A stretch of DNA of 46,271 nt from an uncultured Mediterraneibacter sp. (GTDB lineage Bacteria; Bacillota; Clostridia; Lachnospirales; Lachnospiraceae). The notes under the pieces are model-generated. The model worked only from the letters and a program-made list of their open reading frames with translations. It was not told the origin of the DNA and searched no databases. This document shows positions 21,064-42,913 of the stretch, in pieces. The stretch lies in the NCBI GenBank assembly GCA_944375765.1, contig CALWAR010000134.1, forward strand, positions 1 through 46,271, written 5' to 3'. Each line of letters starts with the position of its first letter. Position 1 is the first letter of the stretch. The position numbers and the translations under genes are program-made.

Positions 21064-21074
21064 TTCTCTCCTCC

Positions 21075-22492: not shown

Positions 22493-23386
22493 TTATGGTT
22501 GTAAAGGGCGGGTATGCATCTTAAGCCCGTCGAACAACGTTTCTTCCAGCAGTCTGAGTTTGTCCCAGTATTCTTTGTTTTTCGTCTCTTTGATGAACTC
22601 GTCAATTCTTTTTATGATTTCTTTTATACCTCTTACATGATCCGCCGGATCTTCCCCTGAAACCAGGTAATTTTCGAGTCGCCCGCCCGGACGATATTGA
22701 TCTCCCAGAATCCCAAGACATTTCTCTGCAAGAACGGTGTCATAAAAGCCCGTCGCCTTTAGTATACCGAAGCAGTCCGCGATGATCTCATCCACCACTG
22801 CATTTTTCTTATCCGGAAACAGTGTGCGGCATACAACATGGCACAGTTCATGGAATACTCTTATATCAAAAGTTATTTTTGTCCACTCCTCTTGAGAATA
22901 CCTTGTTTCTTCGGCCCTGAGCGCGCTGTATCCGCCTTTCGACACAAGGACGATCCTGTCCTTGCAGTTCCCGGAAACAGATGTAAACCTTCTGAACTCT
23001 GCCTGCCAGTCCGTTTTTCCCGACTTCAGATACTCCTCTTTATGCTTTCTGATCCTGCTCCAGTTGGTTATCCCTGAAATAGTAACCGCACCCATGGACG
23101 GCGGAATCTGAATCTCTTCGCATTTATATCCCAGGCATTTTACTGCCCGTTCAAAGTCTTCGCGCTCTGCGAGATAGATAACCTCCACTCTGCCTGCCGG
23201 GGTTTCCACTGTAAACGCGCGGTCTTCCGCACTTCCTTTAAAATAATCTGGCAGTTCTGCGGGGATATTTCCCCTCAGCGCTGTATTCCTGTATTCTTCC
23301 GACTTGCTCATGCCGTTTTTCACCGGAAGGCAGAGCTGGGGATATCTGCGGACATATTGATCCATTATTTTTTTCTTCTGGTCCAT
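22493..23386 (-). CDS. Uncharacterised protein with HExxH motif, putative zinc metallopeptidase
   Basis: I do not recognise the family. The 297-residue product has no signal peptide or membrane segment and so is probably cytoplasmic. It contains FHELCHVVCR with His179-Glu180-x-x-His183, followed by VDEIIADCFGI (Glu200, Asp204), the spacing expected for zinc ligand and support residues of a gluzincin-like peptidase. An upstream conserved-looking segment is PPSMGAVTISGITNWSRIR (residues 96-114). It is the last gene of the RiPP region on the minus strand, just beyond a strong terminator that follows precursor 1. Removal of a leader or follower peptide, or self-protection, are reasonable guesses. 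A non-catalytic role is also possible. Confidence 0.6.
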   Translation of the reverse strand: MDQKKKIMDQYVRRYPQLCLPVKNGMSKSEEYRNTALRGNIPAELPDYFKGSAEDRAFTVETPAGRVEVIYLAEREDFERAVKCLGYKCEEIQIPPSMGAVTISGITNWSRIRKHKEEYLKSGKTDWQAEFRRFTSVSGNCKDRIVLVSKGGYSALRAEETRYSQEEWTKITFDIRVFHELCHVVCRTLFPDKKNAVVDEIIADCFGILKATGFYDTVLAEKCLGILGDQYRPGGRLENYLVSGEDPADHVRGIKEIIKRIDEFIKETKNKEYWDKLRLLEETLFDGLKMHTRPLQP

Positions 23387-23403
23387 TTCTCTTCCTCCAT
23401 ACG

Positions 23404-23428
23404 AAAAAGGAGACGGCCGCCCGTCTCC
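23404..23428 (-). terminator. Strong terminator between NHLP precursor 1 and the HExxH gene
   Basis: On the minus strand GGAGACGG and CCGTCTCC form a perfect 8-bp stem with a GCGG loop, followed directly by TTTTTC. It sits 18 nt after the precursor 1 stop codon. It should end most transcripts after the precursor genes and leave the HExxH gene to read-through. Confidence 0.88.
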
Positions 23429-23446
23429 TCCCTTTTCCAGGACTTC

Positions 23447-23791
23447 TTACTTATTGCCTCCCTGTGCGCCGCATACTTCTCCTTTTGCTGCGCATGCCTG
23501 TGCAGCGCACGCACCGCCAAAGTCGATAAGGCAGGCGCCCCCTGCCACTGCGTCCAGTTCCTCGTCGCTGAGTTCATCTGAGACCATCGGCGGAAGCACA
23601 AATGTGGCTGCATATGCCGGATCGTTCTCCACCACCTTGATCTTGAAATCTTCCGGAAGTTTTTCTCCGGCTACTTTCTCGATCGCAGAATTCGTGTCTT
23701 CCAGAAGCTCTTTACGGAATTCCTCGTCCGTCACCGCCATCTTCTGAACCTCCATGTAGATCTCGTTGATCTTGTCCTGTGTCCATGCCAT
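23447..23791 (-). CDS. NHLP-family RiPP precursor peptide 1
   Basis: The 114-residue precursor has an 85-residue nitrile-hydratase-alpha-like leader: MAWTQDKINEIYMEVQ, then TDEEFRKELLED, ENDPAYAATFVLPPMVSDELSDEELDAVAGG. The cleavage site is after VAGG. The 29-residue core is rich in Ala and Gly with Cys at 87, 95, 100 and 107 and ends in Lys. It lacks the nitrile hydratase metal-binding cysteine cluster, so it is a leader-derived peptide and not an enzyme subunit. Core positions 95-102 read CAAQACAA, a motif shared with both other precursors. It is the last precursor before the terminator. An excellent AAAGGAGG site precedes the ATG. Confidence 0.93.
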   Translation of the reverse strand: MAWTQDKINEIYMEVQKMAVTDEEFRKELLEDTNSAIEKVAGEKLPEDFKIKVVENDPAYAATFVLPPMVSDELSDEELDAVAGGACLIDFGGACAAQACAAKGEVCGAQGGNK

Positions 23792-23834
23792 AGTTGTTTC
23801 CTCCTTTAATATGAAATGATGTTATTTATGTATG

Positions 23835-23852
23835 AATGCCTCGTCCGGCATT
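23835..23852 (-). other. Inter-precursor RNA hairpin
   Basis: On the minus strand AATGCC-GGACGA-GGCATT forms a perfect 6-bp stem in the 77-nt spacer between precursors 2 and 1. It has no T-tract, so it is more likely an mRNA processing or stability element than a terminator. Just upstream, CTCT-gaaat-AGAG followed by TTTTT overlaps the precursor 2 stop codon and could be a weak attenuator. Confidence 0.45.
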
Positions 23853-23868
23853 GATACCTGAAAAAGCT

Positions 23869-24186
23869 CTATTTCAGAGTAGCGTCAGCCGCGCACGCCT
23901 CCGCGCCGCAGCCCATATTGACAAGGCAGTTTCCTCCTGCCACCATGTCAAGTTCGCTTTCATCCAGCTCGTCGGAAACCATCGGCGGAAGCACAAATGT
24001 GGCCGCATATGCCGGATCGTTCTCGATCACATTTACCTGAAATCCCTCCGGCAGTTTCTCCCCTGCCACTCTCTCGATCACAGAGGTTGGATCTTCCAGC
24101 AGTTCTTTCCGGAACTCCTCATCCGTCACCGCCATCTTCTGTACCTCCACGTAAATTTCATTGATCTTTTCCTGACTCCATGCCAT
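23869..24186 (-). CDS. NHLP-family RiPP precursor peptide 2
   Basis: This is a 105-residue precursor whose 85-residue leader is nearly identical to that of precursor 1 (MAWSQEKINEIYVEV..., VLPPMVSDELDESELDMVAGG). The 20-residue core, NCLVNMGCGAEACAADATLK, has Cys at 87, 93 and 98 and the shared motif C-x-A-[QED]-A-C-A-A as CGAEACAA, ending in Lys. Its ATG lies inside the 3' end of the epimerase gene (29-nt overlap), with GGAGAG as ribosome site. Overlap with the maturase gene couples its translation to that of the enzyme. It is separate from precursor 1 and likely arose with it by duplication. Confidence 0.92.
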   Translation of the reverse strand: MAWSQEKINEIYVEVQKMAVTDEEFRKELLEDPTSVIERVAGEKLPEGFQVNVIENDPAYAATFVLPPMVSDELDESELDMVAGGNCLVNMGCGAEACAADATLK

Positions 24187-26750: not shown

Positions 26751-26765
26751 CCTACAGAAGTCCCC

Positions 26766-27119
26766 TTACTTTATCGATGCCCGTGCTGCACATGCATCTG
26801 CCGGGCATCCGCCCCCTATGCCGATCGCCGCTGCACATGCAGATATACCTATGAGAACCGAAATTCCGCCGGCAACCTGGTCCAGATCCTCATCTTCCAG
26901 TTCTTCGCTGACCATATCCGGCAGGACGAATGTCGCATTATACGCCGGGTCATTCTCAATCACTTTGAATTTCATTCCTTCCGGGAGCGGCTCTCCCATC
27001 TCTTTCTCGATGACCGCATCCGGGTTGTCCAGAAGTTCTTTTCTGTACTCCTCGTCTGTCACCGCCTTTTTCTGAATGTTGAGATAAAGTTCATTCAGCT
27101 TTTCCTGTGTCCATTCCAT
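26766..27119 (-). CDS. NHLP-family RiPP precursor peptide 3
   Basis: The 117-residue precursor starts MEWTQEKLNELYLNIQ; this ATG (27119) is preferred over an in-frame start 18 nt upstream because GAAGGAGG precedes it and the leader then has exactly 85 residues, as in precursors 1 and 2. The leader is diverged but keeps TDEEYRKELL, ENDPAYNATFVLPDMVSEEL and VAGG. The 32-residue core is more hydrophobic (ISVLIGISACAAAIGIGGG), then CPADACAARASIK, with Cys at 95, 105 and 110. The shared C-x-A-[QED]-A-C-A-A motif and C-terminal Lys are present. It is placed 14 nt after the GNAT-like gene and before the SPASM enzyme. Confidence 0.92.
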   Translation of the reverse strand: MEWTQEKLNELYLNIQKKAVTDEEYRKELLDNPDAVIEKEMGEPLPEGMKFKVIENDPAYNATFVLPDMVSEELEDEDLDQVAGGISVLIGISACAAAIGIGGGCPADACAARASIK

Positions 27120-27133
27120 AGTGTCTTCCTCCT

Positions 27134-28057: not shown

Positions 28058-28088
28058 GTCCTTTTTGCTCCTGTATTATTCTCTTTTT

Positions 28089-30656
28089 CTATGCAAGCTG
28101 CCTGCTCGCCAGCTCATAGAACAGGCCGTGCTGTTCCATAAGCGCTTCGTAGCTGCCTTCTTCCACGATACGGCCCTTGTCCATGACAAGTATCCTGTCG
28201 CAGTCCATCACAGTGCTCAGTCTGTGCGCAATCACAAGACGTGTGGCATGAAGTTTATTCAGACTTTCACATACCATAGCCTGCGTCACATTATCAAGTG
28301 CAGACGTCGCTTCATCGAAGAAGAGAATCTTCGGTTTCCCGACAATCGCCCGTGCGATCAGTATCCTCTGCTGCTGTCCGCCCGAGATCGTGCCGCCCAT
28401 CTCCGATACGACGGTGTGCATGCCCATCGGCATCCTTTTAATATCTTCCGCAAGCCCAACCTGCTCCGCCACTCTCTCCGCATCTTTAATCGTCGCCTTT
28501 GGGGAAGATATGGTGATGTTGTCAAAAATGCTTCCCCCGATCAGCCTGCCGTCCTGCAGGACCACGCCGAACTTTTTCCTGAGTTCTCTTTTGTCCATCC
28601 TGTCGATGTCCTTGGAATCATAAAAGATCTTTCCGGATTGAGGTTTCTCAAATCCCAGGAGCAGCTTAAGCAGGGTGGATTTGCCGCACCCGGAGGCCCC
28701 CACGATCCCGACATATTCCCCGGACTCAATATGTACAGAGAGGTCATTAAGAACCAGCCCGCTCGCTTCGTCATAGGCAAAGCTCACGTTCGCGATCTCG
28801 ATGTCGCCTGTCAGATCACCTGGCAGCTCCGAGTCTTCCTCATACTCCGGGAGTGTTTCAAGAATCGGCTTAAGCCTGTCCAGCATCGGAACGATCGCAT
28901 TCAGCTGCGGAAGCGACGTCCCCACCTGCATCATCGCTGCGGAAAAAGCCCCGAATGCAGACATAAATGCCGTAAACTCTCCGGTGGTCAGCGCCATCCT
29001 GTTTTCCACCATCTGAAAATACAGGAAGAGAGTAAACGCACTGCTTGCAACCGTTGTTATCATGTCGATGATATTTGTCAGTCTCTCTTTCCTGAGTGTG
29101 ATCTCTTTCGCATCTCCGTATGGTTTCAGATACTCCAGCAGCGCACGGTCTTCCACTCCTGCGTTCCTTATCTTCTGTATGCCTGAAAGATACTGGTACA
29201 TCCGGCTGTTTGCCTCCGCAGTATCCTCCAGATATTTCTTCTCATACTTCATCTGCCAGAACGACAGGATGAGCACTGCCGCCATAACGACCAGCACCAT
29301 GATCAGAGAGAATTTCATCAGCTCCGGTGAATATTTGTTCATCTGCGTAAGATAGAGCAGAGAGAACACCGCTGACAGAAACGTCTTCACAGCCACGGAA
29401 GACAGCAGATTGTACATGCTGTCGATCTGCAGGATACGGTCTGACAGCTCCGCAGACTTATATTCCCTGAAGAAGCTCTCCGGCAGATTGAACAGACGCT
29501 CGCACGCTGCGGCAAGCACCGAATTTTTCATCTTGCTGACGCCTCTTAAAGACGACAGGTTTTTGACGATGGTAAACGCCAGATTCCCCAGATTGCATGC
29601 CAGAAGCACGGCACATATCTGTATGATCCCGTCTGCGGATCCAAGTGGTATATAGTTGTCATAGATCTGTTCATTCAGCATCGGAAGAAGGATCCCGATC
29701 AGCGTTCCCAGCAGAGTAAGCAGACAGAATCTTATCCAGTCTGACGCATCTGACGCTTTTAATGAGAACTTGAACATTTCTTTTACTGTCATTTTCTTAT
29801 TCGGAAACGGTGCGTACACCGCATACGCTTCCGGCTCAAGCATATTGTCTATATGTCCGTTTACTCTGTGTCTCATATGCTTTTCCGGATCATACATGAC
29901 ATAGCCTTTATTCCCTTCCGGCATCAAGGCAACGGCGCTGTGTCCTTTCTTCAGAAAGCCTACCATCGCGTCGGAATCCGTCTTGTACCATCCATGCTCG
30001 AGCTTTACTTCACGAATGATAAAATTCGATACCCTAGAGATATCCTCCATGCGGAATCTCCGTCCGGAAGACGTAATGATCTTATCATAGGGGGCGAGCG
30101 AGATGTTTTTCCGGTCGCACACATAGGCCGCTGCATCGTACAGCCTGTTGCCGCTTTCCGGTGTGCTCTGTCTGCGCGCGTCTCTGTCAAACAGACTGTA
30201 GATCAGTCTCAGTCCCCTTTTTCGCGTCTCCTCCTGTTCTCTTCTGGCGGAGAAGATATAGCCTTCCTCTTTGATGCTGTTGCGGTCATACACCTCATGA
30301 ATGAGCTCGATATAATCCTCTTCACCCATATTGTACAATCCGGCCCGCTCGACAAATTCATCTCCGAGCTCCTCTGTCATCGTGCCGGGTTCTGTCCGAA
30401 TCCGGGCTGAATCGAGCGCTGTCAGGCAGAAACATCTGTATTCCCCGTCCCTCTCATAACAGAAAGATGGAATCCTCTCGTTTTCCCGGGCTTCATGTAT
30501 CAGCAGCCGTCTTCCGCACTCTCCGTCTCTCCCGACAGGCATAACAAAGACCAGGACAGTGCCTTTCTCTACCACATAGGTATCTGTCGTATTCCTGGTA
30601 AGGTAGGTATCGCCCCCTTGGAGATGGATCATTTGTTCTGAAATATCATTTCTCAT
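28089..30656 (-). CDS. NHLM system ABC transporter, permease/ATPase ABC2 (module 1)
   Basis: This is an 855-residue ABC exporter subunit of the NHLM microcin system (NHLM_micro_ABC2 type). A long N-terminal cytosolic region, about residues 1-310, starts with a cyclic-nucleotide-binding-like beta roll (MIHLQGGDTYLTRNTTDTYVVEKGTVLVFV). Six membrane helices follow (about 315-600). The ATPase has Walker A GASGCGKST, signature ISGGQQQR, Walker B ILFFDEATSALD and switch His in IAHRLSTV. It lacks a C39 peptidase domain, consistent with being the partner of the peptidase-containing ABC1 gene that precedes it by 21 nt. It is intact, unlike its paralogue at 35900-38490. Confidence 0.93.
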   Translation of the reverse strand: MRNDISEQMIHLQGGDTYLTRNTTDTYVVEKGTVLVFVMPVGRDGECGRRLLIHEARENERIPSFCYERDGEYRCFCLTALDSARIRTEPGTMTEELGDEFVERAGLYNMGEEDYIELIHEVYDRNSIKEEGYIFSARREQEETRKRGLRLIYSLFDRDARRQSTPESGNRLYDAAAYVCDRKNISLAPYDKIITSSGRRFRMEDISRVSNFIIREVKLEHGWYKTDSDAMVGFLKKGHSAVALMPEGNKGYVMYDPEKHMRHRVNGHIDNMLEPEAYAVYAPFPNKKMTVKEMFKFSLKASDASDWIRFCLLTLLGTLIGILLPMLNEQIYDNYIPLGSADGIIQICAVLLACNLGNLAFTIVKNLSSLRGVSKMKNSVLAAACERLFNLPESFFREYKSAELSDRILQIDSMYNLLSSVAVKTFLSAVFSLLYLTQMNKYSPELMKFSLIMVLVVMAAVLILSFWQMKYEKKYLEDTAEANSRMYQYLSGIQKIRNAGVEDRALLEYLKPYGDAKEITLRKERLTNIIDMITTVASSAFTLFLYFQMVENRMALTTGEFTAFMSAFGAFSAAMMQVGTSLPQLNAIVPMLDRLKPILETLPEYEEDSELPGDLTGDIEIANVSFAYDEASGLVLNDLSVHIESGEYVGIVGASGCGKSTLLKLLLGFEKPQSGKIFYDSKDIDRMDKRELRKKFGVVLQDGRLIGGSIFDNITISSPKATIKDAERVAEQVGLAEDIKRMPMGMHTVVSEMGGTISGGQQQRILIARAIVGKPKILFFDEATSALDNVTQAMVCESLNKLHATRLVIAHRLSTVMDCDRILVMDKGRIVEEGSYEALMEQHGLFYELASRQLA

Positions 30657-30677
30657 CTATATCTATGTCCCTCCTGC

Positions 30678-32852
30678 CTATATATTCCTTATCAGGCGCT
30701 GGTAATGGCCTTCCTGTCCGGCAAGTTCTTCATGTGTGCCGCGCTGTACGATCCTGCCGTTATCCATGACAAGTATTTCATCGCAGTCTCTGATCGCAGA
30801 CAGACGGTGGGCCACAATAATGCATGTACACCCTCTTCTCTTTATGTTGTCCACGATCTCTTTCTCCACCAGCGGATCCAGCGCGCTCGTTGCCTCATCC
30901 ATGATCAGAACTGACGGGTTGGTCACAAGGGCACGTGCGATCTCCAGTCTCTGCCTCTGGCCGCCTGACAGGTTCGATCCGCCTTCCGAGAGAACATAAT
31001 CGTACGCTCCCGGCTTCTTCGTAATTATATCGTGTATGCAGGCGTCCTTTGCCGCCTTGATGATATCACTTTCCAGGATATGTCTGTTCCACATAGTAAG
31101 ATTATCCCTGATTGTTCCTGAAAACAGCATGATCTGCTGACTGACTGTCGACACACTGATACTCATAACTTCAGATGGAATCTGCCCCATGGGAACACCG
31201 TCCAGGAGGATTTCTCCTGACCATGGCTGGTACAGTCCGCTCAGTATCTTGGATACTGTAGACTTTCCGCTTCCTGACGCACCCACAAAAGCAATCGATT
31301 TTCCTGCCGGAAGCCGGAACGAGAATCCTTCCACAAGCGGCGGCTCCAGGATACTGTAGCCGAAAGAAACGTCTTTCATATCCACATTGCCTGTCAGTTT
31401 TCTGTCCAGGTCAGCCTTTTTCGTTTTCTGATCTTTCGACGGATCAATTTTATAGTTCTGGATGTCTTCCACCCGCCCCATATCTGTCTTCATCGTCTGC
31501 ACTTTCTGGATGACTCCGACAAGACTGTTGATCGGTATGATGAAAGATCCGAGAAGGCTCGTGTACGCCACAAGCTGGCCGACAGACATACTGCCCCCGA
31601 TAACGAGAAGCCCGCCCATCATCAGAACAAGGACATTTGTCGTGTTTTTGGAGATCTCCGGAATGGAATTTAAGATCTCCTGAGTCCTGGACATCTCCTG
31701 TCCCTTTGTGGCAACCTTTCCGTAATTTCCCATAATACGTCCTACATATTCGTTCTCCACGCCGGAAGCCTTCAGCGTGCTCGTAATCGAGACGCCTGTA
31801 TAGAATACGCCGTACATTTTGCCTGTATCCTGCTGCATTTTCTTGGACATGTCTTCCAGCTTTTCCGATGATATTTTCATGAGCAGAATATTTACCGCAG
31901 CTCCTGCCACTCCAATCAGCGTCAGCAGAGGACTGTACATAAGCAGGAGCAGAAGGTAGAAGCAGGAGACAAATATATTCAGGATCGTCTCGCCGAGATC
32001 TCCCGCCAGAAATTCGCTTACTTTATTGTTATTCTCGACTCTTCCTGAAAGATCGCCCACATTCCGCTGATCATAAAATGACATCGGCAGTCTCAGCATA
32101 TGTGAGATAAATCCATGAGCAGATACCAGTGCAAGTTTATTCTGAAGTTTCAGAAGAAGCGCGCTTTTCAAATATGTAAAAAACCCCTGGAAAGCGATTG
32201 TTGCCCCCATCAGTATCAGAAACTGCATAAACCAGGATGTCGTCTGTCCGATCAGGATCTCATCGATAAAGACTTCCGAGAATACCGGCATCATGATACC
32301 GGGGACAACGAGGAATATCCCTGTCAGAAGAAGCGATGCGATCGATTTTCCCTGTCCTTTCAGACGTCTCTGAATGAATTTCAAAAGTGTTCTCTTCTGA
32401 CGTTCTCTCCTGAATCCGGGCCCTTTTTTCAACTGAATCGTTATCCCTGTATAGCCTTCGTCCAGTTCCTTTTTTGTCAGCTTTCTCCGGCCGCCTGCCG
32501 GATCATTCAGATAATAATATTTGCCCTTTTTCCCTTCAAATACAACAAAATGATTAAAATTCCAGTGTATAATGCAGGGAACTGAGGCTTCTTCGATAAG
32601 TTTCCTCAGACTGTATCTGTACCCTTTTGCGATCAGTCCGAGTCTCTTCGCAGCTTTTACAATATTGCTGGCCTTGCTCCCGTCTCTGGAAACTCCTGTC
32701 TCTATGCGCATCTGTTCCAGCGGGATCTCTCTTCCGTAATAAGCAAAGATCATAGAAAGCGACGCCGCGCCGCACTCTGTTGCCTCCATCTGGAAAACAG
32801 TAGGGGTTTTCGCGTATGTTTTTTTCTTTTCAAAAACTATTTTATCTGGCAT
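30678..32852 (-). CDS. NHLM system C39 peptidase / ABC transporter ABC1 (module 1)
   Basis: The 724-residue peptidase-containing exporter cuts leader peptides after a double glycine and pumps out the core. The C39 domain has catalytic Cys27 (MEATECGAASL), His in HWNFNHFVVFEG and Asp in LNDPAGGRR. Six membrane helices follow (about 165-430), then an ATPase with GASGSGKST, NLSGGQRQR, LIMDEATSALDP and CIIVAHRLSAI. The family is the NHLM_micro_ABC1 type that processes NHLP leaders, so the VAGG sites of the three precursors are its likely targets. It sits between the HlyD adaptor and ABC2 with short gaps (26 and 21 nt). Confidence 0.95.
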   Translation of the reverse strand: MPDKIVFEKKKTYAKTPTVFQMEATECGAASLSMIFAYYGREIPLEQMRIETGVSRDGSKASNIVKAAKRLGLIAKGYRYSLRKLIEEASVPCIIHWNFNHFVVFEGKKGKYYYLNDPAGGRRKLTKKELDEGYTGITIQLKKGPGFRRERQKRTLLKFIQRRLKGQGKSIASLLLTGIFLVVPGIMMPVFSEVFIDEILIGQTTSWFMQFLILMGATIAFQGFFTYLKSALLLKLQNKLALVSAHGFISHMLRLPMSFYDQRNVGDLSGRVENNNKVSEFLAGDLGETILNIFVSCFYLLLLLMYSPLLTLIGVAGAAVNILLMKISSEKLEDMSKKMQQDTGKMYGVFYTGVSITSTLKASGVENEYVGRIMGNYGKVATKGQEMSRTQEILNSIPEISKNTTNVLVLMMGGLLVIGGSMSVGQLVAYTSLLGSFIIPINSLVGVIQKVQTMKTDMGRVEDIQNYKIDPSKDQKTKKADLDRKLTGNVDMKDVSFGYSILEPPLVEGFSFRLPAGKSIAFVGASGSGKSTVSKILSGLYQPWSGEILLDGVPMGQIPSEVMSISVSTVSQQIMLFSGTIRDNLTMWNRHILESDIIKAAKDACIHDIITKKPGAYDYVLSEGGSNLSGGQRQRLEIARALVTNPSVLIMDEATSALDPLVEKEIVDNIKRRGCTCIIVAHRLSAIRDCDEILVMDNGRIVQRGTHEELAGQEGHYQRLIRNI

Positions 32853-32878
32853 TTCACTTTTTACCCCATTCTCTGAAA

Positions 32879-34450
32879 TTATTCCATGTTAAACTTTTCT
32901 TTTAACTTTGGAATCACCATCGTGATGGGAGGTACTTCTTCTGTGATCACACTTCCCTGAAGCAGAGTGCCGGCTTCGAGATCGGTCTCTGCGCCTTTAT
33001 CTGTAGACCATGCAAAGCCGCTCGCTGTATCTGCATCTGTGTCGATCTCGCATACGACTTCAAGCACAGCGCCGTTTTTGCTGAAAGTAGACGCCAGCGT
33101 CTCATCGCCAAGTCTTGTAAAGAGATCCGCATAAGAGGTAACATAGTCCGCCACCGAGACGACCGTTCCTGTCATATGACCATATTCTTCTTTCGGAAGG
33201 TTCGTCGCATAGATATTTACTTCCATTCCTTCTCTGACGTTCTTGCCCGAAGAAAGGGACATAAAATATACTGCCTGAAGTTTACCGTCGCTGCCTGTAT
33301 CCTGCTGGCTGATCCTTGCCACCTCACTGTCAAGAGTCACAGTGCTTCCGTTCGTTGCAAAGGTAGAATACACAGTCCCTGACGCTGTGGCCGTGATCTC
33401 CTGGCCAGTCTGAAGTGTCTCATAATTTTTCAGTTCCCGGCTAAGCTGGTTCAGAGTCGCTTCTTTGGCGGCGTTAAACTGTTCTTCCAGAGCGTCTGCC
33501 TGAACACTCTGCGAAGACTCATTTTCTGAAAGCTGCACTTCCATCGACCGCACTTCAGATGCCAGGGACTCCTCCTTGCTTTTAGCCGCACTGTATGCAC
33601 TGAGCGCATTATTGTACGCGTTTGACTTTTCTGTGATATCCGCTGATGTGCGTCCTGCACGATTGAGCTGATTTTCATATGCAGCCTGCTTTTCCTCATA
33701 TACAGCTTTCTTTGCATCTCTTTCTGCTTCTGCCGCGTCCATCTGGGTTTTTAGATCCACGCTGTCCGGCTGTGCTGCATATGCCGCTCTTGCCGCCTGA
33801 TAGGCTGTTTCAGCCGCTTCATATTCTGCAGAAGCCTGTGAATACTCGTACTCGATCACTGTGCTGTTATCAGCCAACAGGGCATTATAATATGCTTCGG
33901 ACGCAGCGTTCATTTCCGCTTCCAGGCGGTTCGTTTCCGCCTGCGCCTCCGCATACGCCTGCCTCAGAACTCCAAGACTCGTCTCGCTTGCATCTGTATT
34001 CAGAGACAGCGTGAGCTTCTGGTTTTTGATCTCGATCAGAGCCTGGTTATCCGCTGTCGCTTTATCATCTTCCGAATCAAATGTGACTGCTTCGACACCT
34101 GCAATCCTCTCCTGAAGCTGTTCAATCGCCTGAGCTGTCTGTGTACTGTTTACCTCATAAAGTACGTCGCCCTCTTCAACATAGTCGCCGCTGCTTACAT
34201 ACGTTTTCGTCACGATTCCTTCGGTCTGTGCATAGACAGACGTAAGCACACTTTCTGTCAGCAGAATCCCGTTCCCTTCCTCGGTAATCGGCACGCGCCC
34301 CAGTATTCCCCAGAGAACCGCAATCACGATAATCACCGCGCCGCCGAGCAGCGCAACCCATGTCATCGGAGAATTAATCACAATCATCTTATCAAGCTGT
34401 TCCGGCGATGAGAGCCGGTCCAGTGATTTTTTCCTGAAAATATCCGCCAT
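32879..34450 (-). CDS. NHLM system HlyD-type membrane-fusion/secretion protein (module 1)
   Basis: This 523-residue adaptor anchors in the cytoplasmic membrane and extends outward to couple the ABC pump to the exterior. It begins MADIFRKKSLDRLSSPEQLDKMI and has a membrane helix at about residues 35-55 (WVALLGGAVIIVIAVLWGIL). A biotinyl-lipoyl-like half follows (VKT/GDYVEEGDVLYEVNS), then a long Ala/Gln/Glu-rich coiled coil (about 125-370) and a beta-barrel C-terminus. The ATG at 34450 with AAGGAAGG is preferred over a start 44 codons upstream that adds unrelated residues. It precedes the C39 exporter gene. Its full length contrasts with the short HlyD-like protein of module 2. Confidence 0.93.
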   Translation of the reverse strand: MADIFRKKSLDRLSSPEQLDKMIVINSPMTWVALLGGAVIIVIAVLWGILGRVPITEEGNGILLTESVLTSVYAQTEGIVTKTYVSSGDYVEEGDVLYEVNSTQTAQAIEQLQERIAGVEAVTFDSEDDKATADNQALIEIKNQKLTLSLNTDASETSLGVLRQAYAEAQAETNRLEAEMNAASEAYYNALLADNSTVIEYEYSQASAEYEAAETAYQAARAAYAAQPDSVDLKTQMDAAEAERDAKKAVYEEKQAAYENQLNRAGRTSADITEKSNAYNNALSAYSAAKSKEESLASEVRSMEVQLSENESSQSVQADALEEQFNAAKEATLNQLSRELKNYETLQTGQEITATASGTVYSTFATNGSTVTLDSEVARISQQDTGSDGKLQAVYFMSLSSGKNVREGMEVNIYATNLPKEEYGHMTGTVVSVADYVTSYADLFTRLGDETLASTFSKNGAVLEVVCEIDTDADTASGFAWSTDKGAETDLEAGTLLQGSVITEEVPPITMVIPKLKEKFNME

Positions 34451-34476
34451 TTCCTGTCCTTCCTTTATCGTGCTTT

Positions 34477-35127: not shown

Positions 35128-35137
35128 CTGCTTTCTC

Positions 35138-35434: not shown

Positions 35435-35465
35435 AGTTATCCTCCATTTATTTATAATAATATTT

Positions 35466-35882: not shown

Positions 35883-35899
35883 TATTTTCTCCTTTCGGT

Positions 35900-38490
35900 T
35901 TAACCGCCTGCTGAAAGCATCTGTCGTTTTGCAAGTTCATAGAAAGCCCCCCCTGCATTCAGCAATTCATCATATGTCCCTTCTTCTACGATCTTTCCAT
36001 GATCCATAACAAAGATACGATCGCATCTTTTCACTGTATTGATCCTATGCGCAATGACGATGCGCGTCATGCGTCTTTTCTCGAGCATTTTTATGATCTT
36101 TCCCTGAGTCTCATTGTCAAGCGCACTTGTTGCCTCGTCCAGGAACAGGACCGTCGGCTTTCCCGCCAGCGCCCGTGCAAGGAGTATGCGCTGTTTCTGT
36201 CCGCCTGAGATCGTACTGCCTGATTCCGTCACAAGTGTATGAAGTCCCATGGGCATCTGTTCTACTTCCTCTTTTAAACTGACTTCATCCAGCAGTTTCC
36301 ATGCCTGCTCCTGCGTCATGCCGGCCACAGAAGCCGAGATATTCTCATAAATGCTTCCCGTAAAAAGTGATTCGTCCTGCAGCACTACACCCAGCTTCTT
36401 TCTGAGATCCGGCTTGCTGATATGATCCAGATTTTTATGGTCATAGAATACGCATCCCTTATCCGGTTTTTCAAACCCCAGCAGGATCTGCAGAAGCGTC
36501 GATTTCCCGCATCCCGATGTCCCCACGATGCCAATGTAATCGCCTTTGTTAGCCCGGATCGATACATCTTCCAGAACGCTGCCTTCCTCTTTGCTGTACG
36601 AGAAAGAGACATTGCTCGCTTCCACGCTCCCGTCCAGTTTTCCCACACTGCCGGAACTGTCCTGCGCCTCTGACGGACATTCCAGGATCGGACGCACCGC
36701 TCGTATGTCGGAAAGATAAAATCCGCTTCAACGACAGACATTATCACATCCACGACACTCTGAGCAAATAATTCTGAAACAGTGAGGAGCGCCACGAACC
36801 TTCCGGTGTCGCCGCTGCTCATCTGACCCAGAAAGAGCAGGAACAAAAGCAGGAAAGTGATTCCCGAATAGAGCCGTGAAAACATATCGATCCATGTGGT
36901 ATCCCTGCTCTGCCGCAGTTCAATCCTGCACATCTTTGTATATCGTTTTAAATATTCATAGAGCGCCCTGTCTTCCATCCCATCTGTACGTATCTTCTGT
37001 ATCCCGCACAGATACTGGTACATGAGGGAGTTTAACATTCCTTCTTCTCTCTGTTTTTCTTTCTCCGCCTCAACGTGTCTTCTGCACAGGATGTAAGCTG
37101 TCACTCCAAAGATCCCGGCACATACCGCAATCCCCGCTCCGGTTCTGACGTCATACATCAGCATGCAGACGCCGAATATGAGAGCAAAAACCAGACTGAT
37201 CGCTGCGTTCACCAGTTCCCGGGATGCGTCTCTGAATATCTCTGCCGCCTTGATCGCTCTCTGCGCAAGATCCGCCGAATCATAGTTTCTTATCATGTCT
37301 TCCGGAAGGTGCATGAGTCTGTCATAGACCGCAGCCATTACGGAGTTCTGTATATGGTTGATGTTGCTGTAGACCGCTGTATTCTTCACCAGTGATATGC
37401 AGAAATACCCGGCCATACACATGGCTATCATAATGCCAAAATCCAGGAGAAGCTCATATTCTCCTGTGGGAACCAGCACATCTGTCAGATACTCGTAGGA
37501 GACCGGAAAGATCAGAGCCGCCAGTGCTCCTGCCGCCACCAGGGCAAAGACAAAAGCCCAGTTTGCCGCAGAAGTTTCCCGGAACCCAAACAGCAGAAGG
37601 CCTTTCAGATCCACTGCGTTCTTTCCAAATGACCGGTAGAATGTGACAGCTTCCCGGTCGATCTTCTCCGCTTCCCGGCTGTCCACTCTCCTTGTCTCCC
37701 CGGCTGCAGGATCATATATAAGATAACGGCCTGCTTTCCTGAAGAGGACGACCGGCACATGATCATCCTTTGTATATCCCAGAAATGCACCTATATTTTT
37801 TCTCTGCCATTCCGGTTCAAGCCGGATCTTTCTTGCCGGTATCTCACAGGCAGACGCCATCTGGAAGATCTCCATTCCCCTTGGGAATTTCTCCTTGAGT
37901 TTTTCAAAGGACAAAATGTCATATCCCTGTCTGGCACAGAGGAAAGAAAATGCTTTATACAGAGGATCCTTATTCAAAAGGTTCCCTTCCATCCCCTCTT
38001 CCCCTGTTTTTTTCCGTCTTTTCCCGGCGATCAGATTCTCCTGTATCAGCTGTCTGCAGTTTTCTATGCTTCGGATACGATCCTGAGCGGACGCATAGAC
38101 GTATGCCTCTTCTTTCATCATAGCCATGTTGTACTTTTCGATCATTTCTTCCTGAAACTCGGATTCATCGAAAAGAAGCACCCCTGCATTTTTTGCAAAC
38201 GTCTTCCGGGTCTGTGCCGGCATATCTACCGCTTTCAGAAAATGGATCTCTGCACGCTCCTGCGCTGCGAGCTGAAAGTTCCAATGCTTTTCACTCATTT
38301 CCATATCAAGAAACGGAATATAGTCCCCTTCGGAAACAGTACACAGATACATTTTTTTGCCAGGTATCTCTCCCTTATATGGCACGATATAGACAAGCAG
38401 GCTGCCGGCAGCTACCTGTCCGCACATGGCGGTGTCCTGTGTCCTGTATGTCTGGCCACCCTGTAGTTTCATAACACTTCCATACCTCAT
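35900..38490 (-). pseudogene. NHLM ABC transporter ABC2 (module 2), frameshifted
   Basis: This is a paralogue of the ABC2 gene at 28089, split by a 1-nt deletion. The first frame (38490 down to the shift) codes the long N-terminal region (MKLQGGQTYRTQDTAMCG...) and membrane helices. It reaches FIFPTYERC and then reads out of frame to a stop at 36385. The ATPase continues in the other frame from GTG at 36697 (VRPILECPSEAQ...) and has GTSGCGKST, ISGGQKQR, LFLDEATSALD and IAHRINTV. Compared with module 1 (DRLKPILE), the expected sequence is YERVRPILE, so one G is missing near 36698-36701. No slippery heptamer is visible. It is either a young inactivation or a sequencing error. Both halves are otherwise intact. 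Confidence 0.85.
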
Positions 38491-40649
38491 TCGTCCTGTA
38501 TCAGACTCCTGTATATCTTAGAATTCTCTGCAAGCATTTCGTGAGTTCCTATTTCCACTGCTCTGCCCTGGTCCATCACGGCGATCAGAGTACAGTCCCT
38601 GATCGCTGACAGCCTGTGCGCGATCACGATACACGTGCACCCTCTCCGTTTGATGTTGTCGAGGATCTTCTTTTCTGTGATCGCATCCAGCGCACTTGTC
38701 GCCTCATCCATGATAAGGATAGAGGGATTTTTCGTGAGGGCCCTCGCGATCTCCAGCCTTTGCTTCTGTCCTCCTGAGAGGTTGAGCCCGTTTTCCCTGA
38801 CCATATATTCATATGAACCGGGCTTTTTCAGGATTTCCTCATGGATACAGGCGTCTTTTGCCGCCTGGATAATATCCCCTTCCATAACCGCAGGATTCCA
38901 CATCGTGAGATTATCACGTATCGTCCCTGAAAACAGGGTGATCTCCTGACTGACTACACCGATTCCGGATCTCAAGACGTCTCCTGATATTTCTTTGATC
39001 GGTCGACCGTCGATCAGGATTTCTCCCGACCATGGTGCGTACAGACCGCTCAGCACTTTCGCCACTGTAGATTTCCCGCTTCCCGAGTTTCCTACAAATG
39101 CGATCGAATCTCCGCTGTTCACGGAGAACGACAGTTCACTTACAAACGGCGGATGAAGTCTGTGATATCCAAATGAAATCTTCTCCACATCGATCCGGCC
39201 CTGTATCCCGGGTCCGGTATCATATTTCAAAGTTCTCTCTTCATTTTCCCGGAACCGGCCGTCCTCCTCATATGATACGATATCGTCCATCCGAAGCATG
39301 TCGACCTTGAATTCCTGTATCTGCCGCACAAACTCCGACGCCTGCATCACCGGATTGAGAAACGCTGTCAGAAGACTTAGAAAGGCTGCCAGCATCCCTG
39401 CCGTCAGTTCTCCCTGAATGACCAGGATACCGCCTGAAAACAGGATCATAACCATGAGGAGCTTGGGGATCGCATCTGCCGCTGTCGTAATTATCTCCTG
39501 TGTTTTTCCGATTTTCTGTTCCTGCCGGGCCGCTTTTGCATAATACCCCATAACTTTCCCTGTATAGCTGTCCTCTGCACCTGACGCCTTGATCGTCTTA
39601 CTGATATTCATACCAGCGTAGACCGCACCCACAAGTTTGCCTTCATCCTGTTTCAGTTTCTGCATATCACTTTCTATGAGACGAAACGCCGCCATTACAA
39701 GTGCCGCGAACAGTAAGACTCCCACCGCACCGGCCAGAGCCAGTTTTTCACTGTATATGAACATCAGCACAAAATAAAAACATGCGGTAAAAACGTCCAG
39801 AGTCATCTGTGTCAGCTTTCCTGACAGAAAATCACACACTCTGTAATTGTCAAAAATCCTCTCGCTCAGATCTCCGGGGTATCTCTGTTCATAAAAATTC
39901 ATGGGGAGCCGAAACATATGATGGAGAAACTCAAACGAAGAATTCAGAACCATGCGGTTCCTGAAGATTCTCAGTATCCATCCTCTGTACAGCATCCATA
40001 CTGCCTGGAACATCAGCACCGCCGAAAAGATCAGAAGAAAAGAAGTGAGCCATTGCTTCTGCCCGCCCTGGAGGATACTGTCAATGAATATCTGCGTCAT
40101 GACAGGAATGATCAGCCCCGGAACTGCCAGGAAGAGTCCTGCCACGATCAGAATCAGAAGATTCCCCTGTTCTCCTTTGATTCTTTCCCACAGAAGTTCC
40201 CGTACTTTCCGGTTCCTGTCCCCCGGCATGAAAGAATCACTTTTCTTAAATTCAAGTACAATCCCGGTAAAACATTCATCGATCTCTTCTTTTCTTAGTT
40301 TTCTCCTTCCGATATCAGGATCATTGATATAAAAATATTTGCCCTTTCGCCCTTCATATACGACAAAATGATTAAAATTCCAGTGCAGGATGCAGGGAAG
40401 CGAGACGTCGTCCAGTTCCTCAAGTTCCATCGCATAGCCCTGTCCTGAAAGTCCGAAGTTTTCCGCTGCCTGCAGTATATTTCCCGCATTGCATCCGTCT
40501 CTTGAGATTCCGGTCTCAATCCTGACCTTTTCAAGCGCCACATTCTTTCCGTGCCATGCCAGGATACTGGTCAGCGCCGCCGCGCCGCACTCCGCCGCCT
40601 CCATCTGAAAGATGAGCGGTGTTTTCACATACCTTTTCATAGTCCACAT
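38487..40649 (-). CDS. NHLM system C39 peptidase / ABC transporter ABC1 (module 2)
   Basis: This 720-residue paralogue of the module 1 exporter has an intact C39 peptidase: Cys21 (MEAAECGAAAL), His in HWNFNHFVVYEG and Asp in INDPDIGRR. Six membrane helices follow (about 165-430), then an ATPase with GNSGSGKST, NLSGGQKQR, LIMDEATSALDA and CIVIAHRLSAI. Its stop codon overlaps the next gene's start as ATGA, giving translational coupling to the frameshifted ABC2. A candidate substrate is the 42-residue double-glycine peptide at the head of the operon, because the NHLP genes sit beside module 1. This pairing is inferred from position. A second start at 40640 is possible. Confidence 0.93.
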   Translation of the reverse strand: MWTMKRYVKTPLIFQMEAAECGAAALTSILAWHGKNVALEKVRIETGISRDGCNAGNILQAAENFGLSGQGYAMELEELDDVSLPCILHWNFNHFVVYEGRKGKYFYINDPDIGRRKLRKEEIDECFTGIVLEFKKSDSFMPGDRNRKVRELLWERIKGEQGNLLILIVAGLFLAVPGLIIPVMTQIFIDSILQGGQKQWLTSFLLIFSAVLMFQAVWMLYRGWILRIFRNRMVLNSSFEFLHHMFRLPMNFYEQRYPGDLSERIFDNYRVCDFLSGKLTQMTLDVFTACFYFVLMFIYSEKLALAGAVGVLLFAALVMAAFRLIESDMQKLKQDEGKLVGAVYAGMNISKTIKASGAEDSYTGKVMGYYAKAARQEQKIGKTQEIITTAADAIPKLLMVMILFSGGILVIQGELTAGMLAAFLSLLTAFLNPVMQASEFVRQIQEFKVDMLRMDDIVSYEEDGRFRENEERTLKYDTGPGIQGRIDVEKISFGYHRLHPPFVSELSFSVNSGDSIAFVGNSGSGKSTVAKVLSGLYAPWSGEILIDGRPIKEISGDVLRSGIGVVSQEITLFSGTIRDNLTMWNPAVMEGDIIQAAKDACIHEEILKKPGSYEYMVRENGLNLSGGQKQRLEIARALTKNPSILIMDEATSALDAITEKKILDNIKRRGCTCIVIAHRLSAIRDCTLIAVMDQGRAVEIGTHEMLAENSKIYRSLIQDE

Positions 40650-40662
40650 TCAATCAACTTTC

Positions 40663-41187
40663 TTACAGCCATAAATCTATCGGATGTACACTCTCTTTCT
40701 GAATCTCCACCTGAAGCACCTCTCCGTCTTCCGGCATGTCCCCGGCTTCCTCTGTCAGTCTGCAGTGGTAGACTGCAACAGGGACGCCATCTGTAAGATA
40801 CTGGAGAAAACTCTCGTTTCCTCTGATATATCCGAGCAGCTCTTCCTGTGAGATCCAGCGGCTCTCCGCTTCGCTGATATACCCGGTCAGAGCCGTGCTG
40901 TCTCCCCCGGCTTTACTCATACTTACTTTCATGTCATTTTCTATTCCCGAGGCATTTTCAAGCTGTACAAAACACAGGATCTCGTTCTTTTCCTGGATAT
41001 AAACCCCAGATCCTTCAGCCAGCATAGGGATCTGTCCCAAAAACACCCATGCCAGAAAAGCGCCTGCTGCCAGAACGCCGCCTGCCGCCGCGATCCACCA
41101 GTGAGAGGGTACACGGCATACCGGACTGGACAGGTTCTCTGCTGTCAGAAGTTTTTCTTTTGCTTTCTCTCTGAAATTCACCGCCAT
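40663..41187 (-). CDS. Minimal HlyD-like protein lacking the coiled-coil (module 2)
   Basis: This 174-residue single-pass membrane protein has a cytoplasmic N-terminus (MAVNFREKAKEKLLTAENL) that parallels the start of the module 1 HlyD (FRKKSLDRLSSPEQL). A helix follows (WWIAAAGGVLAAGAFLAWVFL), then GQIPMLAEGSGVYIQEKNE, matching the start of the outer domain in HlyD. The rest is a short beta domain (ILCFVQLENASGIENDMKVSMSK...VLQVEIQKESVHPIDLWL). The 250-residue coiled-coil of a normal adaptor is absent. It could be a reduced adaptor or an assembly regulator. It lies 2 nt after the phosphatase and 13 nt before the C39 exporter. Confidence 0.7.
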   Translation of the reverse strand: MAVNFREKAKEKLLTAENLSSPVCRVPSHWWIAAAGGVLAAGAFLAWVFLGQIPMLAEGSGVYIQEKNEILCFVQLENASGIENDMKVSMSKAGGDSTALTGYISEAESRWISQEELLGYIRGNESFLQYLTDGVPVAVYHCRLTEEAGDMPEDGEVLQVEIQKESVHPIDLWL

Positions 41188-41189
41188 AT

Positions 41190-42713
41190 CTACTCTCCGG
41201 TTCCTTTATACTCTACGATCAGCATTGTGATATCGTCTGCCTGTGTCGCACCGGCGGCAAATTCATCGATCGACTCTGAGATATGAGAGACGATATCTTT
41301 GATTTCGGACTTCTTTACTTTTTCCAGTTCGCTCTCCAGTCTGTCTTCTCCATACAATGCCAGCTCTGTGTTCGTCGCTTCCGTGACCCCGTCTGTATAA
41401 AGGAGTATTCTCTCTCCGGGCTGCAGTACTGTCTTCCCTGTCCGGTACTGTATTCCTTCCATTCCGCCCAGAACAAACCCGGGGCGCATTTTGAGCATCT
41501 CCACTGTATTGTCATTTCTGCAGATATACGGCGCATTATGTCCTGCGTTGCTGAACTCCATTTCCCCTGTCTTCAGATTCAGAATCGCAAAGAATACAGT
41601 GATAAACAGACCTTTTTCATTGCTCTCCAGGAGCTGTTCATTGGACTGGGTAAGAATCCGGCCCGGTTCTGCATCCATCACTGCCTGATTCCTTATCGTT
41701 GTCTTGCCTGCCATCATAAAGAGAGCCGCCGGCACTCCCTTTCCTGAAACATCTGCAATCACAAACGCCAGATGATCGTCATCGAGCAAATAGAAATCAT
41801 AGAAGTCTCCGCCGACTTCTCTCGCAGGTCTCATACTTGCATAGACATCAAACTCTGTCCTGTCCGGGAAAGCCGGGAACACGGATGGGAGGACAGACTG
41901 CTGTATGTCGCTTGCCACCATCAGGTCCGCCTGGACTTTCGCCGACTCGGCGGAGATCCTGACCGCGTCAAAGAGCGCAGAGTACATGAAAGCATACATT
42001 GCCGTCATGCCTATGATCACGACAATGGCAACAAATATATTTGCATTATAAATACTTCTGAAATTAATGCCGAGAAGATCTATCACAGCCAGAACTAACA
42101 GGAATATGACATATGATGCGATCGGAACTTTCAGAAATTTCCCGATCTCATCCTTGATCTTATTCAGTGTTTCCAGCAGTGCGTCTTTTAAGAAAGTACG
42201 GAACAGGCCCGCACTTATCCCGAGCCAGAAGACCTCTATCAGAATCCTTACCGGTTCTGGCGGATAATCATAAGCTGCTTCGGTGATCCCTGTTGAAAAC
42301 GGAAGATTTGTAATCTCACAGAACACGTTCAGAACGATCGTCTCAACCAAGAGCACAAGCAGGGTGAGGAACACCTTTTCTTCCCATTTTTCTTTATATA
42401 AAAATAACGCAGCTAACACGACAACAGTACCGGGAATCATATTCTGTATAAGATTTGCCAGGGACAGCATGATATTTCCAAACCATGTCACCTCGCCGCC
42501 GTGGACCGCCTCATAATCGGCCACCAGACTCCCTATGCCGGCATAGAGAAATTCATATCCTATAGTCGCCACGACTGCAACGATCCCAAAAAATATATAT
42601 TTCCCGGCAATTCCTTTTGGCTTTTTATGCTCCAGCATAACTGAAATGACAAAAATGCAGCAAATATATAAGACTCCTGAACGAATCCCCTCATCGAAAT
42701 ATTCCATCACCAT
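41190..42713 (-). CDS. Membrane SpoIIE/RsbU-type PP2C serine phosphatase
   Basis: The 507-residue protein has seven or eight membrane helices (residues 1-270) and then a cytoplasmic SpoIIE-type PP2C domain. The phosphatase domain has the QQSVLPSVFPAF linker, metal-binding REVGGDFYDF and AFVIADVSGKGVPAALFMM, FSNAGHNAPY and YTDGVTEATN. In partner switching it dephosphorylates an STAS antagonist; here the STAS and RsbW-like genes are downstream in the same operon. The membrane part may sense a peptide or the transport state. The ATG at 42713 (site ACGGAG) is preferred over one at 42743, which would begin right at the base of a hairpin. Confidence 0.92.
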   Translation of the reverse strand: MVMEYFDEGIRSGVLYICCIFVISVMLEHKKPKGIAGKYIFFGIVAVVATIGYEFLYAGIGSLVADYEAVHGGEVTWFGNIMLSLANLIQNMIPGTVVVLAALFLYKEKWEEKVFLTLLVLLVETIVLNVFCEITNLPFSTGITEAAYDYPPEPVRILIEVFWLGISAGLFRTFLKDALLETLNKIKDEIGKFLKVPIASYVIFLLVLAVIDLLGINFRSIYNANIFVAIVVIIGMTAMYAFMYSALFDAVRISAESAKVQADLMVASDIQQSVLPSVFPAFPDRTEFDVYASMRPAREVGGDFYDFYLLDDDHLAFVIADVSGKGVPAALFMMAGKTTIRNQAVMDAEPGRILTQSNEQLLESNEKGLFITVFFAILNLKTGEMEFSNAGHNAPYICRNDNTVEMLKMRPGFVLGGMEGIQYRTGKTVLQPGERILLYTDGVTEATNTELALYGEDRLESELEKVKKSEIKDIVSHISESIDEFAAGATQADDITMLIVEYKGTGE

Positions 42714-42746
42714 CGCGTTTTCTCCGTTATCACAATTTATCATAAC

Positions 42747-42775
42747 AGGCAGAAGACACTTATGGTCTCCTGCCT
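42747..42775 (-). other. Strong hairpin between the small peptide and the phosphatase genes
   Basis: On the minus strand AGGCAGGAGAC pairs with GTCTTCTGCCT (11-bp stem, one G-T pair, 7-nt loop). It lies 9 nt after the stop codon of the 42-residue peptide and has no T-tract. It is probably a processing or 3'-end-protecting hairpin that raises the level of the peptide message over the downstream genes. Confidence 0.6.
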
Positions 42776-42784
42776 AACTAAAGA

Positions 42785-42913
42785 CTAGCGCCATGCTCTC
42801 GCTCCTCTTCTGCCGCCGGAAACTTTCTCAAGTTCTTTTGGATTCAGAGTTTTTTTCTGGGCTTCTTTTTTCTCAGCTTCTTTTTTCTGAATTTCTTTTT
42901 CATTCTTATTCAT
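42785..42913 (-). CDS. 42-residue double-glycine peptide with RRGARAWR tail
   Basis: The first gene of the operon codes a peptide with a Lys/Glu-rich amphipathic helix, then LNPKELEKVSGG, a textbook C39 double-glycine cleavage site (E-L-x-x-V-x-G-G), and finally the eight residues RRGARAWR. A near-perfect AAAGGAGGTG ribosome site precedes ATG at 42913; a longer in-frame start lacks one. It is unrelated to the NHLP precursors. Possible roles are a secreted signal, a second RiPP, or an export cofactor. Its neighbours, the membrane phosphatase and a second C39 exporter, favour a signal peptide that feeds back on the partner switch. That is a hypothesis. The function is not known. Confidence 0.75.
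   Translation of the reverse strand: MNKNEKEIQKKEAEKKEAQKKTLNPKELEKVSGGRRGARAWR

Follow-up and report, generated by a model that had tools for sequence, protein, structure and literature searches.

Proteusins such as the polytheonamides and landornamides are ribosomally synthesized and post-translationally modified peptides (RiPPs) associated with an NHLP leader, often though not always a PoyD-family epimerase, a double-glycine (GG) cleavage site and a C39 exporter. A block of 18 genes from an uncultured Mediterraneibacter sp. displays these same features and lies on the minus strand of a stretch of 46,271 nucleotides (the window), which is one complete contig of a 2.55-Mb draft assembly (134 contigs). 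The block extends from position 42913 down to 22493, with a short GG peptide as its first gene and a DUF7005 protein as its last (Table 1). Its content and conservation suggest, with somewhat better than even confidence, one regulated RiPP operon that would make, modify and export three Cys-containing proteusins, and the product is best read as proteusins bearing D-residues and thioethers, possibly acylated. The locus differs from the polytheonamide and landornamide systems in its CX4C cores, SPASM-type radical S-adenosylmethionine (SAM) enzyme, tandem GNAT-like protein, HExxH protein and partner switch, and no B12 radical SAM methyltransferase is present among its genes.

Other described systems share individual parts with this locus. 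The CefA/CefB families (NF038108/NF038107) feature a related SPASM enzyme and a five-residue Cys spacing, and one precursor from a relative of the window cluster exceeds the CefA cut-off, but the window enzyme falls far below that of CefB and the window cores carry one CX4C unit behind an NHLP leader; among the matches listed in a literature search on CefB and Cys-every-fifth peptides, all were unrelated by title. The GNAT enzymes of selidamides, some of which are proteusins, are reported to acylate Lys or (hydroxy)ornithine (PMC9505594). The window is similar in that its GNAT-like protein adjoins the first NHLP precursor and a Lys is available, whereas this GNAT has two domains with a degenerate coenzyme A (CoA) loop, no arginase accompanies it, and radical SAM chemistry takes the place of a lanthionine synthetase. 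The auxiliary-cluster Cys residues of the SPASM enzyme are shared with ranthipeptide and sactipeptide systems. All three parts of the NHLM export system are found above cut-off in one module of the window (module A), but a second module has a hairpin-less HlyD and a split ABC2, and a partner switch is attached. A report on the Pseudomonas pfl cluster describes an NHLP precursor with a GNAT and an HEXXH 2-oxoglutarate-dependent hydroxylase of IPR026337 (PMC12636437). The window likewise joins an NHLP precursor to a GNAT and an HExxH protein, the latter being assigned to PF22541.

SpoIIE-type switches are mainly familiar from sporulation and the stress response. The closest described logic to that of the window is the BtrU/BtrV/BtrW switch of Bordetella, of which BtrS is the extracytoplasmic function (ECF) sigma factor. 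Its PP2C, STAS and HATPase proteins are reported to act on type III secretion (PMC8256260). The window switch instead accompanies a peptide ATP-binding cassette (ABC) exporter and RiPP genes, and a sigma factor inside the locus is seen only in relatives. An earlier note on this DNA had not recognised the combination as a known cluster type, and no report of it, or of NHLM exporters with a partner switch, was found in the open-access literature by the titles and abstract openings of the matches listed. The terms 'sigma', 'phosphatase' and 'radical SAM' were not found by term search in the paper that founded NHLP and NHLM (PMC2887384). The partner switch beside NHLM genes is not confined to the window, as it recurs at other loci of the family next to RiPP genes of several kinds. 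The single parts are known and the cluster is a variant of the proteusin kind; the link between switch and export is the broader result.

Conservation of the gene block in a second genus

A search of 397 genomes of the same family with the GNAT-like protein returned a sole close relative beyond the own genome, in G104 of another genus (59% identity), along with weak matches in G145 and G352. Eighteen open reading frames (ORFs) of the window, equal to 17 genes with the GG peptide excepted, have counterparts in G104 in identical order and at 49-87% identity, so the gene set named in the earlier note was found again, intact and in the same arrangement. A homologue of the GG peptide also precedes SpoIIE in G104, with a conserved leader and a different tail (KVEITRTW vs RRGARAWR); because it sits at the same place, the peptide is a conserved member of the set rather than unrelated to it, as had been claimed. 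The NHLP, SPASM, PoyD, GNAT-like, NHLM and phosphatase/STAS/RsbW-like genes were all confirmed on the minus strand. Intergenic spacing ranges from -29 to +41 bp, save for 77 bp ahead of the third NHLP precursor and 60 bp ahead of DUF7005, and a 313-bp overlap within ABC2_B is the split gene itself and no true overlap of genes. The order conserved in a second genus, together with the short gaps, supports the proposal that the block is a single unit. Scans of the locus for terminators and promoters gave no signal exceeding that of shuffled sequences.

The block resides at different chromosomal places in the two genera, as the window flank gene at 19504-21078 maps to 185 kb of the G104 contig and the G104 cluster lies at 2.14 Mb. 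In G308, a genome of the same genus with no GNAT match, a 13.5-kb contig matches the window piecewise from 11.5 to 22.5 kb, without a match to window 12.4-15.2 kb, and the match stops at 22467, 26 bp short of the end of DUF7005. This one border and the two chromosomal places make it probable that horizontal transfer brought in the whole block in one piece. An artefactual origin of the block was dismissed since the gene order is kept in G104, and a phage or plasmid cargo is unsupported with the SPASM enzyme as sole query: no relative was present in viral contigs, and every one of 501 plasmid records was below 60% identity, with eight listed at 27-35%. At E <= 1e-120, SpoIIE was matched in a phylum sample of 388 genomes by the own genome alone.

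Precursors and modifying enzymes

All three NHLP leaders exceed the curated TIGR03793 cut-off of 50.9 bits. The motif C-x-A-x-A-C is present in each of the three window cores, which hold a single CX4C unit apiece, and the six cores of the window and G104 share the form C-x-A-[DNEQ]-A-C with A or G as the next residue, and end in Lys in every case (6/6). Eight short cores (window, G104 and L035) contain 10 CX4C pairs compared to 1.7 after shuffling, where the maximum of 2000 shuffles was 7.

The SPASM enzyme scores 60.7 bits against the cut-off of 27 for the SPASM domain (TIGR04085), and its eight auxiliary Cys residues are invariant among 8 aligned sequences. Its closest solved structure is 5wgg (2.6e-18), which we take to be the thioether maturase CteB. 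Scanning genomes with the aligned SPASM enzymes led to 14 loci. Five of them (L032-L036), at 52-55% identity, are located in metagenome-assembled genomes (MAGs) of Ruminococcus, Lachnospiraceae, Treponema and Clostridia. A PoyD-type gene adjoins the SPASM gene in all five, and NHLP precursors are found in four, the remaining L032 being a 3.1-kb contig; the other nine loci (27-40% identity) gave no PoyD, NHLP or GNAT match in the available stretches. B12 radical SAM-like ORFs accompany three of the relatives: L033 encodes a B12 radical SAM C-methyltransferase above the TIGR03975 cut-off, the radical SAM protein of L036 has a B12-binding match that stays below its Pfam cut-off, and L034 has a similar ORF judged from sequence alone. 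Within the epimerase, Cys274 is the sole invariant Cys outside CxxxCxxC in six sequences (window, G104 and L033-L036), in line with a report that homologues of PoyD have a single catalytic Cys in common (PMC8326336).

Precursors of three relatives are long, with cores of 284, 374 and 132 residues bearing 30, 31 and 19 Cys, respectively. Their Cys residues are mostly spaced by 5 or 10 residues, with no pair at 1-4, 7, 8, 12 or 13, and form 42 CX4C pairs compared to 8.0 after shuffling (maximum of 2000 shuffles, 16). Two of these, the NHLP-like proteins at L033:11279-12427 (284-residue core, 30 Cys) and L034:12248-13627 (374 residues, 31 Cys), have a long acidic tail and adjoin genes for SPASM, PoyD and B12 radical SAM-like proteins. 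The L035 and L036 precursors exceed the cut-off for NHLP leaders and those of L033 and L034 fall below it; by the CefA model (cut-off 30 bits), the L033 precursor passes at 38.5, L034 (27.4) and L035 (19.8) fail, and L036 has no match. No CefA match was found for the three window precursors. ORFs with at least 3 CX4C pairs in L076-L127 (five further stretches besides the 47 NHLM ones), as well as in 38 control stretches, were judged noise only, leaving a CefB-like enzyme at L077 without a recognised precursor. The strongest such ORF, with 21 CX4C pairs, lies in a control stretch (L136:13334-14125) and could be a repeat gene read in antisense.

The GNAT-like protein falls just below its Pfam cut-off (Table 1), and a sequence-only search matched no GNAT structure significantly. 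Its structural model, built from a two-sequence alignment (mean pLDDT, the predicted local distance difference test, of 62), displays two GNAT-like halves. Most PDB matches of this model are acetyltransferases, tandem GNATs among them: the five at E <= 0.001 are acetyltransferases of tandem size, with single GNATs as well as aminoacyl-phosphatidylglycerol synthases ranked lower. TM-scores of the best 50 rows are 0.17-0.33 by query and up to ~0.6 by target for single domains. Acylation is tentatively suggested by analogy with the selidamide GNATs, which reportedly act on Lys or ornithine (PMC9505594). A distant GNAT occurs together with SPASM, PoyD and NHLP in the Treponema MAG, and none was found in the available stretches of L033, L034 and L036.

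DUF7005 is typified by H179, E180 and H183 with D199 and E200, all invariant in the window, G104 and G154 (three genera), and because this HExxH motif and downstream DE pair are conserved, the working guess is that the protein is a metallopeptidase for peptide release. A role as an α-ketoglutarate hydroxylase is disfavoured, as such enzymes belong to another Pfam family and oxygen dependence would seem unlikely if the host, as its relatives do, lives anaerobically. A single-sequence structure model (pLDDT 39) was set aside unused. Proteins of PF22541 are encoded in 14 of the 397 family genomes, and in seven of these (window, G104, G154, G179, G230, G012 and G307) with NHLM or switch genes. Their neighbours include STAS and NHLM genes in G154; SpoIIE, HATPase, sigma factor and NHLM genes in G179; STAS and a piece of ABC2 in G230; a distant STAS fusion and a weak SPASM match in G012; and SpoIIE at 3.6 kb in G307. 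A GG-like ORF lies alongside in G108, no NHLM or switch genes are nearby in G158, G079 and G203, and the contigs of G168, G331 and G090, at 3-4 kb, are too short for a neighbourhood.

Partner switch and NHLM exporters

The three switch proteins retain the residues expected of them. E44, N48, D80, G82 and GGLG of the HATPase are invariant among 10 aligned sequences, as is Ser54 of the STAS protein in 12 of 12, presumably the phosphorylated residue by the positions of SpoIIAA/RsbV, and the PP2C metal residues of SpoIIE are present, as read by eye. Such genes were surveyed with models built from the window and G104 proteins at 47 of 50 NHLM places (the own one and two of G104 being left out), some in stretches cut short at contig ends, and in controls of 38 hand-picked 20-kb stretches from 19 of the 38 genomes. 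With statistics that ignore phylogeny and with loci of one genome being non-independent, at least one of STAS, HATPase and SpoIIE was found at 13/47 NHLM loci compared to 2/38 controls (Fisher P 0.009), at least two kinds at 8/47 compared to 0/38 (P 0.008), and all three at 6/47 compared to 0/38 (P 0.03). Restricted to the 19 genomes that gave controls, the corresponding counts are 10/23 against 2/38 for any switch gene (P 0.0005) and 7/23 against 0/38 for at least two kinds (P 0.0006).

The RiPP genes that adjoin switch loci are diverse, including LanM at L087, a SPASM enzyme at L077 that is closest to CefB and below its cut-off, and a YydG-like epimerase, also below cut-off, at L109. In G179 (L089, L201; C19 ~378-396 kb), a minus-strand run contains SpoIIE, HATPase, an ECF sigma factor, DUF7005 and STAS along with five GG precursors, a methyltransferase, two YcaO proteins, a SPASM enzyme, HlyD and two NHLM ABC genes; the one GG precursor that was profiled is a Nif11 peptide just above cut-off. 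L092, L120 and L201 contain ECF sigma factors that possess the two sigma-70 regions; at L120:13511-16452 and L092:4095-13823 their genes lie near those for STAS and HATPase, beside NHLM exporters. Switch genes thus recur at NHLM loci in the company of lanthipeptide, YcaO or radical SAM genes, and these arrangements point to a class-independent, regulated peptide-export cassette in the host family.

The export genes of the window form two modules of unequal integrity. HlyD_A, ABC1_A and ABC2_A of module A each exceed their respective cut-offs (TIGR03794, TIGR03796 and TIGR03797), with the start of HlyD_A set at 34450 rather than 34582. The duplicated module proposed earlier is indeed present, but is broken in the present assembly: ABC1_B is above the TIGR03796 cut-off, ABC2_B is split and HlyD_B is short and without a family match. 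The homologue of ABC2_B in G104 is one unbroken frame of 859 residues. The shortness of HlyD_B is shared with G104 (172 residues vs 174 in the window), and its residues 5-66 resemble the N-terminal start of the G104 HlyD_A. Short HlyD-like ORFs are common at NHLM loci of the host family, and a few loci have long forms. Across the family, NHLM ABC2 genes occur in 40/397 genomes (E <= 1e-150) and above the model cut-off in 17, and NHLP leaders above cut-off in 2/397 with weaker matches in 16 more; as NHLP is far rarer than NHLM, most of these exporters seem to carry other peptides. At L118:8551-8987, in a stretch with no switch gene, NHLM exporters are accompanied by a pair of small GG peptides whose tails are almost the same (SGIRDKNRADS and SGIRDKNRTDR).

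Proposed pathway and competing readings

In the proposed pathway, the SPASM enzyme would join the Cys residues of C-x-A-x-A-C to nearby carbons as thioethers, by analogy with related maturases, PoyD would convert selected core residues to the D form, and the GNAT might acylate the peptide with the C-terminal Lys as candidate acceptor. Module A would then cleave the leader at GG and export the product, and module B, if intact, would export the short GG peptide, whose eight-residue tail could be a self-signal. Control would fall to SpoIIE, which would dephosphorylate STAS at Ser54 and allow it to capture the HATPase; the target of the latter, probably an ECF sigma factor beyond the locus, would be released and the operon turned on. 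DUF7005 may act as a metallopeptidase for late cleavage. Such a scheme would link NHLM-exported peptide natural products to SpoIIE-type phosphorylation switches and, if true, offer a handle on when such bacteria turn on RiPP production, as well as a compact enzyme set able to introduce D-residues and thioethers, and perhaps a lipid, into a single peptide, alongside giant Cys-repeat relatives. A wider proposal is put forward tentatively, with well under even confidence: the NHLM exporters of the host family would constitute a class-independent, partner-switched cassette (SpoIIE, HATPase and STAS, sometimes with an ECF sigma factor and DUF7005) that takes lanthipeptide, YcaO/Nif11 and radical SAM clusters. 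In the window, the GG octapeptide would then be the signal that the cassette itself exports, and its cargo a new type of proteusin combining D-residues and acylation with thioether units of the Cys-every-fifth kind.

Several observations weigh against the operon and its pathway as drawn. The SPASM enzyme is above no maturase cut-off among the best 25 of 82 families, with a CefB score of 206 bits against a cut-off of 600, so thioether formation is proposed by analogy. The first glycine of the CoA loop is replaced in the GNAT, in an alignment read by eye, making acylation uncertain. ABC2_B is broken, and module B may not work in the window strain. No sigma factor is encoded among the cluster genes, the fuller own-genome matches of two query sigma factors reach just 27-29% identity, and no sigma-70-like promoter was found upstream of the GG peptide. 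With a close GNAT in only 2/397 family genomes, conservation is drawn from two clusters, and the protein of the other flank (43972-44862) is unmatched in G308 and in G104. Finally, 34/47 NHLM loci have no switch gene in the available stretch, and the link between switch and exporter is therefore frequent but not obligatory.

Given the duplicated NHLM genes, the block could also be two adjacent cassettes, sharing a strand but not a function, in which the genes from the GG peptide to STAS serve independent GG-peptide signalling and export and those from CPBP to DUF7005 are the proteusin cluster. Window exporters are merely 27-53% identical to the other module of G104, and switch and NHLM genes without an NHLP above cut-off do exist at other loci; yet a second genus keeps the full order at a different site on its chromosome, and the STAS/CPBP seam is spaced by 10 and 12 bp, so that this division is considered rather unlikely. 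A selidamide-like product, that is, a fatty-acylated proteusin made chiefly by the GNAT, with the radical SAM reactions in a lesser role, is possible but doubtful. It would accord with the reported Lys or (hydroxy)ornithine acylation, with the terminal Lys of the six cores and with the coupling of a distant GNAT to SPASM, PoyD and NHLP in Treponema, but the annotated cluster genes include no arginase, lanthionine synthetase or hydroxylase, the GNAT scores just below its Pfam cut-off with a degenerate CoA loop, and three of the four other precursor-bearing relatives have, in the available DNA, a B12 radical SAM-like ORF and no GNAT.

The Cys motif might serve metal or disulfide chemistry instead, with a non-thioether role for the SPASM enzyme. 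PapB is reported to join Cys to Asp or Glu (PMC9413430), whereas the matching residue, three after Cys, varies in this motif (D, N, E, Q or K). The five-residue Cys phasing of the relatives and the eight invariant auxiliary Cys of the enzyme speak against this explanation, which is judged unlikely. Less likely still is a decaying cluster, no longer working in the window strain owing to the frameshift in ABC2_B, a gene intact in G104, and to the absent sigma factor. The remaining genes have open frames and are conserved, the frameshift may be an assembly error in a draft of 134 contigs, and the intact cluster of G104 likewise leaves no space between its genes for a sigma factor. The genes of the block are collected in Table 1.

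Table 1 Genes of the block, listed from the GG peptide to DUF7005
Feature	Position in window	Strand	Evidence
Short double-glycine peptide, 42 residues, predicted 8-residue tail RRGARAWR	42785..42913	-	ORF with ribosome site; G104 homologue ahead of SpoIIE
Membrane SpoIIE/PP2C phosphatase, 517 residues	41190..42743	-	Pfam SpoIIE 8.5e-50; 70% identity to G104; membrane part by eye
HlyD_B, short adaptor lacking the coiled-coil hairpin, 174 residues	40663..41187	-	No family match; 49% identity to G104 short form
ABC1_B, NHLM exporter with C39 peptidase	38487..40649	-	TIGR03796 884.3 vs cut-off 853.3 bits; Peptidase_C39 1.5e-34
ABC2_B, NHLM exporter with a frame break near 36690	35900..38490	-	ORFs 36385-38490 and 35900-36697 join at TIGR03797 position 428
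RsbW/SpoIIAB-like HATPase, 138 residues	35466..35882	-	HATPase_c_2 3.5e-23; ATP-site residues invariant
STAS anti-anti-sigma protein, 98 residues	35138..35434	-	TIGR00377 77 bits, above cut-off; Ser54 invariant
CPBP intramembrane protease, 216 residues	34477..35127	-	Rce1-like 9e-19; 55% identity to G104
HlyD_A, full NHLM adaptor, 523 residues	32879..34450	-	TIGR03794 235 bits, above cut-off; ribosome site
ABC1_A, NHLM exporter with C39 peptidase	30678..32852	-	TIGR03796 990 bits, above cut-off; Peptidase_C39 1.1e-34; 87% identity to G104
ABC2_A, NHLM exporter	28089..30656	-	TIGR03797 813 bits, above cut-off; 81% identity to G104
Tandem GNAT-like putative acyltransferase, 307 residues	27134..28057	-	Acetyltransf_1 20.4 bits, cut-off 20.7; model with two GNAT-like halves
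NHLP precursor 1, core ISVLIGISACAAAIGIGGGCPADACAARASIK	26766..27119	-	TIGR03793 71.7 bits
SPASM radical SAM enzyme, 437 residues	25437..26750	-	Best NCBIfam models Clo7bot, TIGR04463 and CefB, each below cut-off
PoyD-type peptide epimerase, 430 residues	24158..25450	-	TIGR04517 333.2 vs cut-off 325 bits
NHLP precursor 2, core NCLVNMGCGAEACAADATLK	23869..24186	-	TIGR03793 67.0 bits
NHLP precursor 3, core ACLIDFGGACAAQACAAKGEVCGAQGGNK	23447..23791	-	TIGR03793 65.6 bits
HExxH protein DUF7005, 297 residues	22493..23386	-	PF22541 9.3e-56

Elsewhere in the window, at 1348-2505 and ~20 kb from the cluster, an ORF resembles a tyrosine-recombinase-like integrase by eye.

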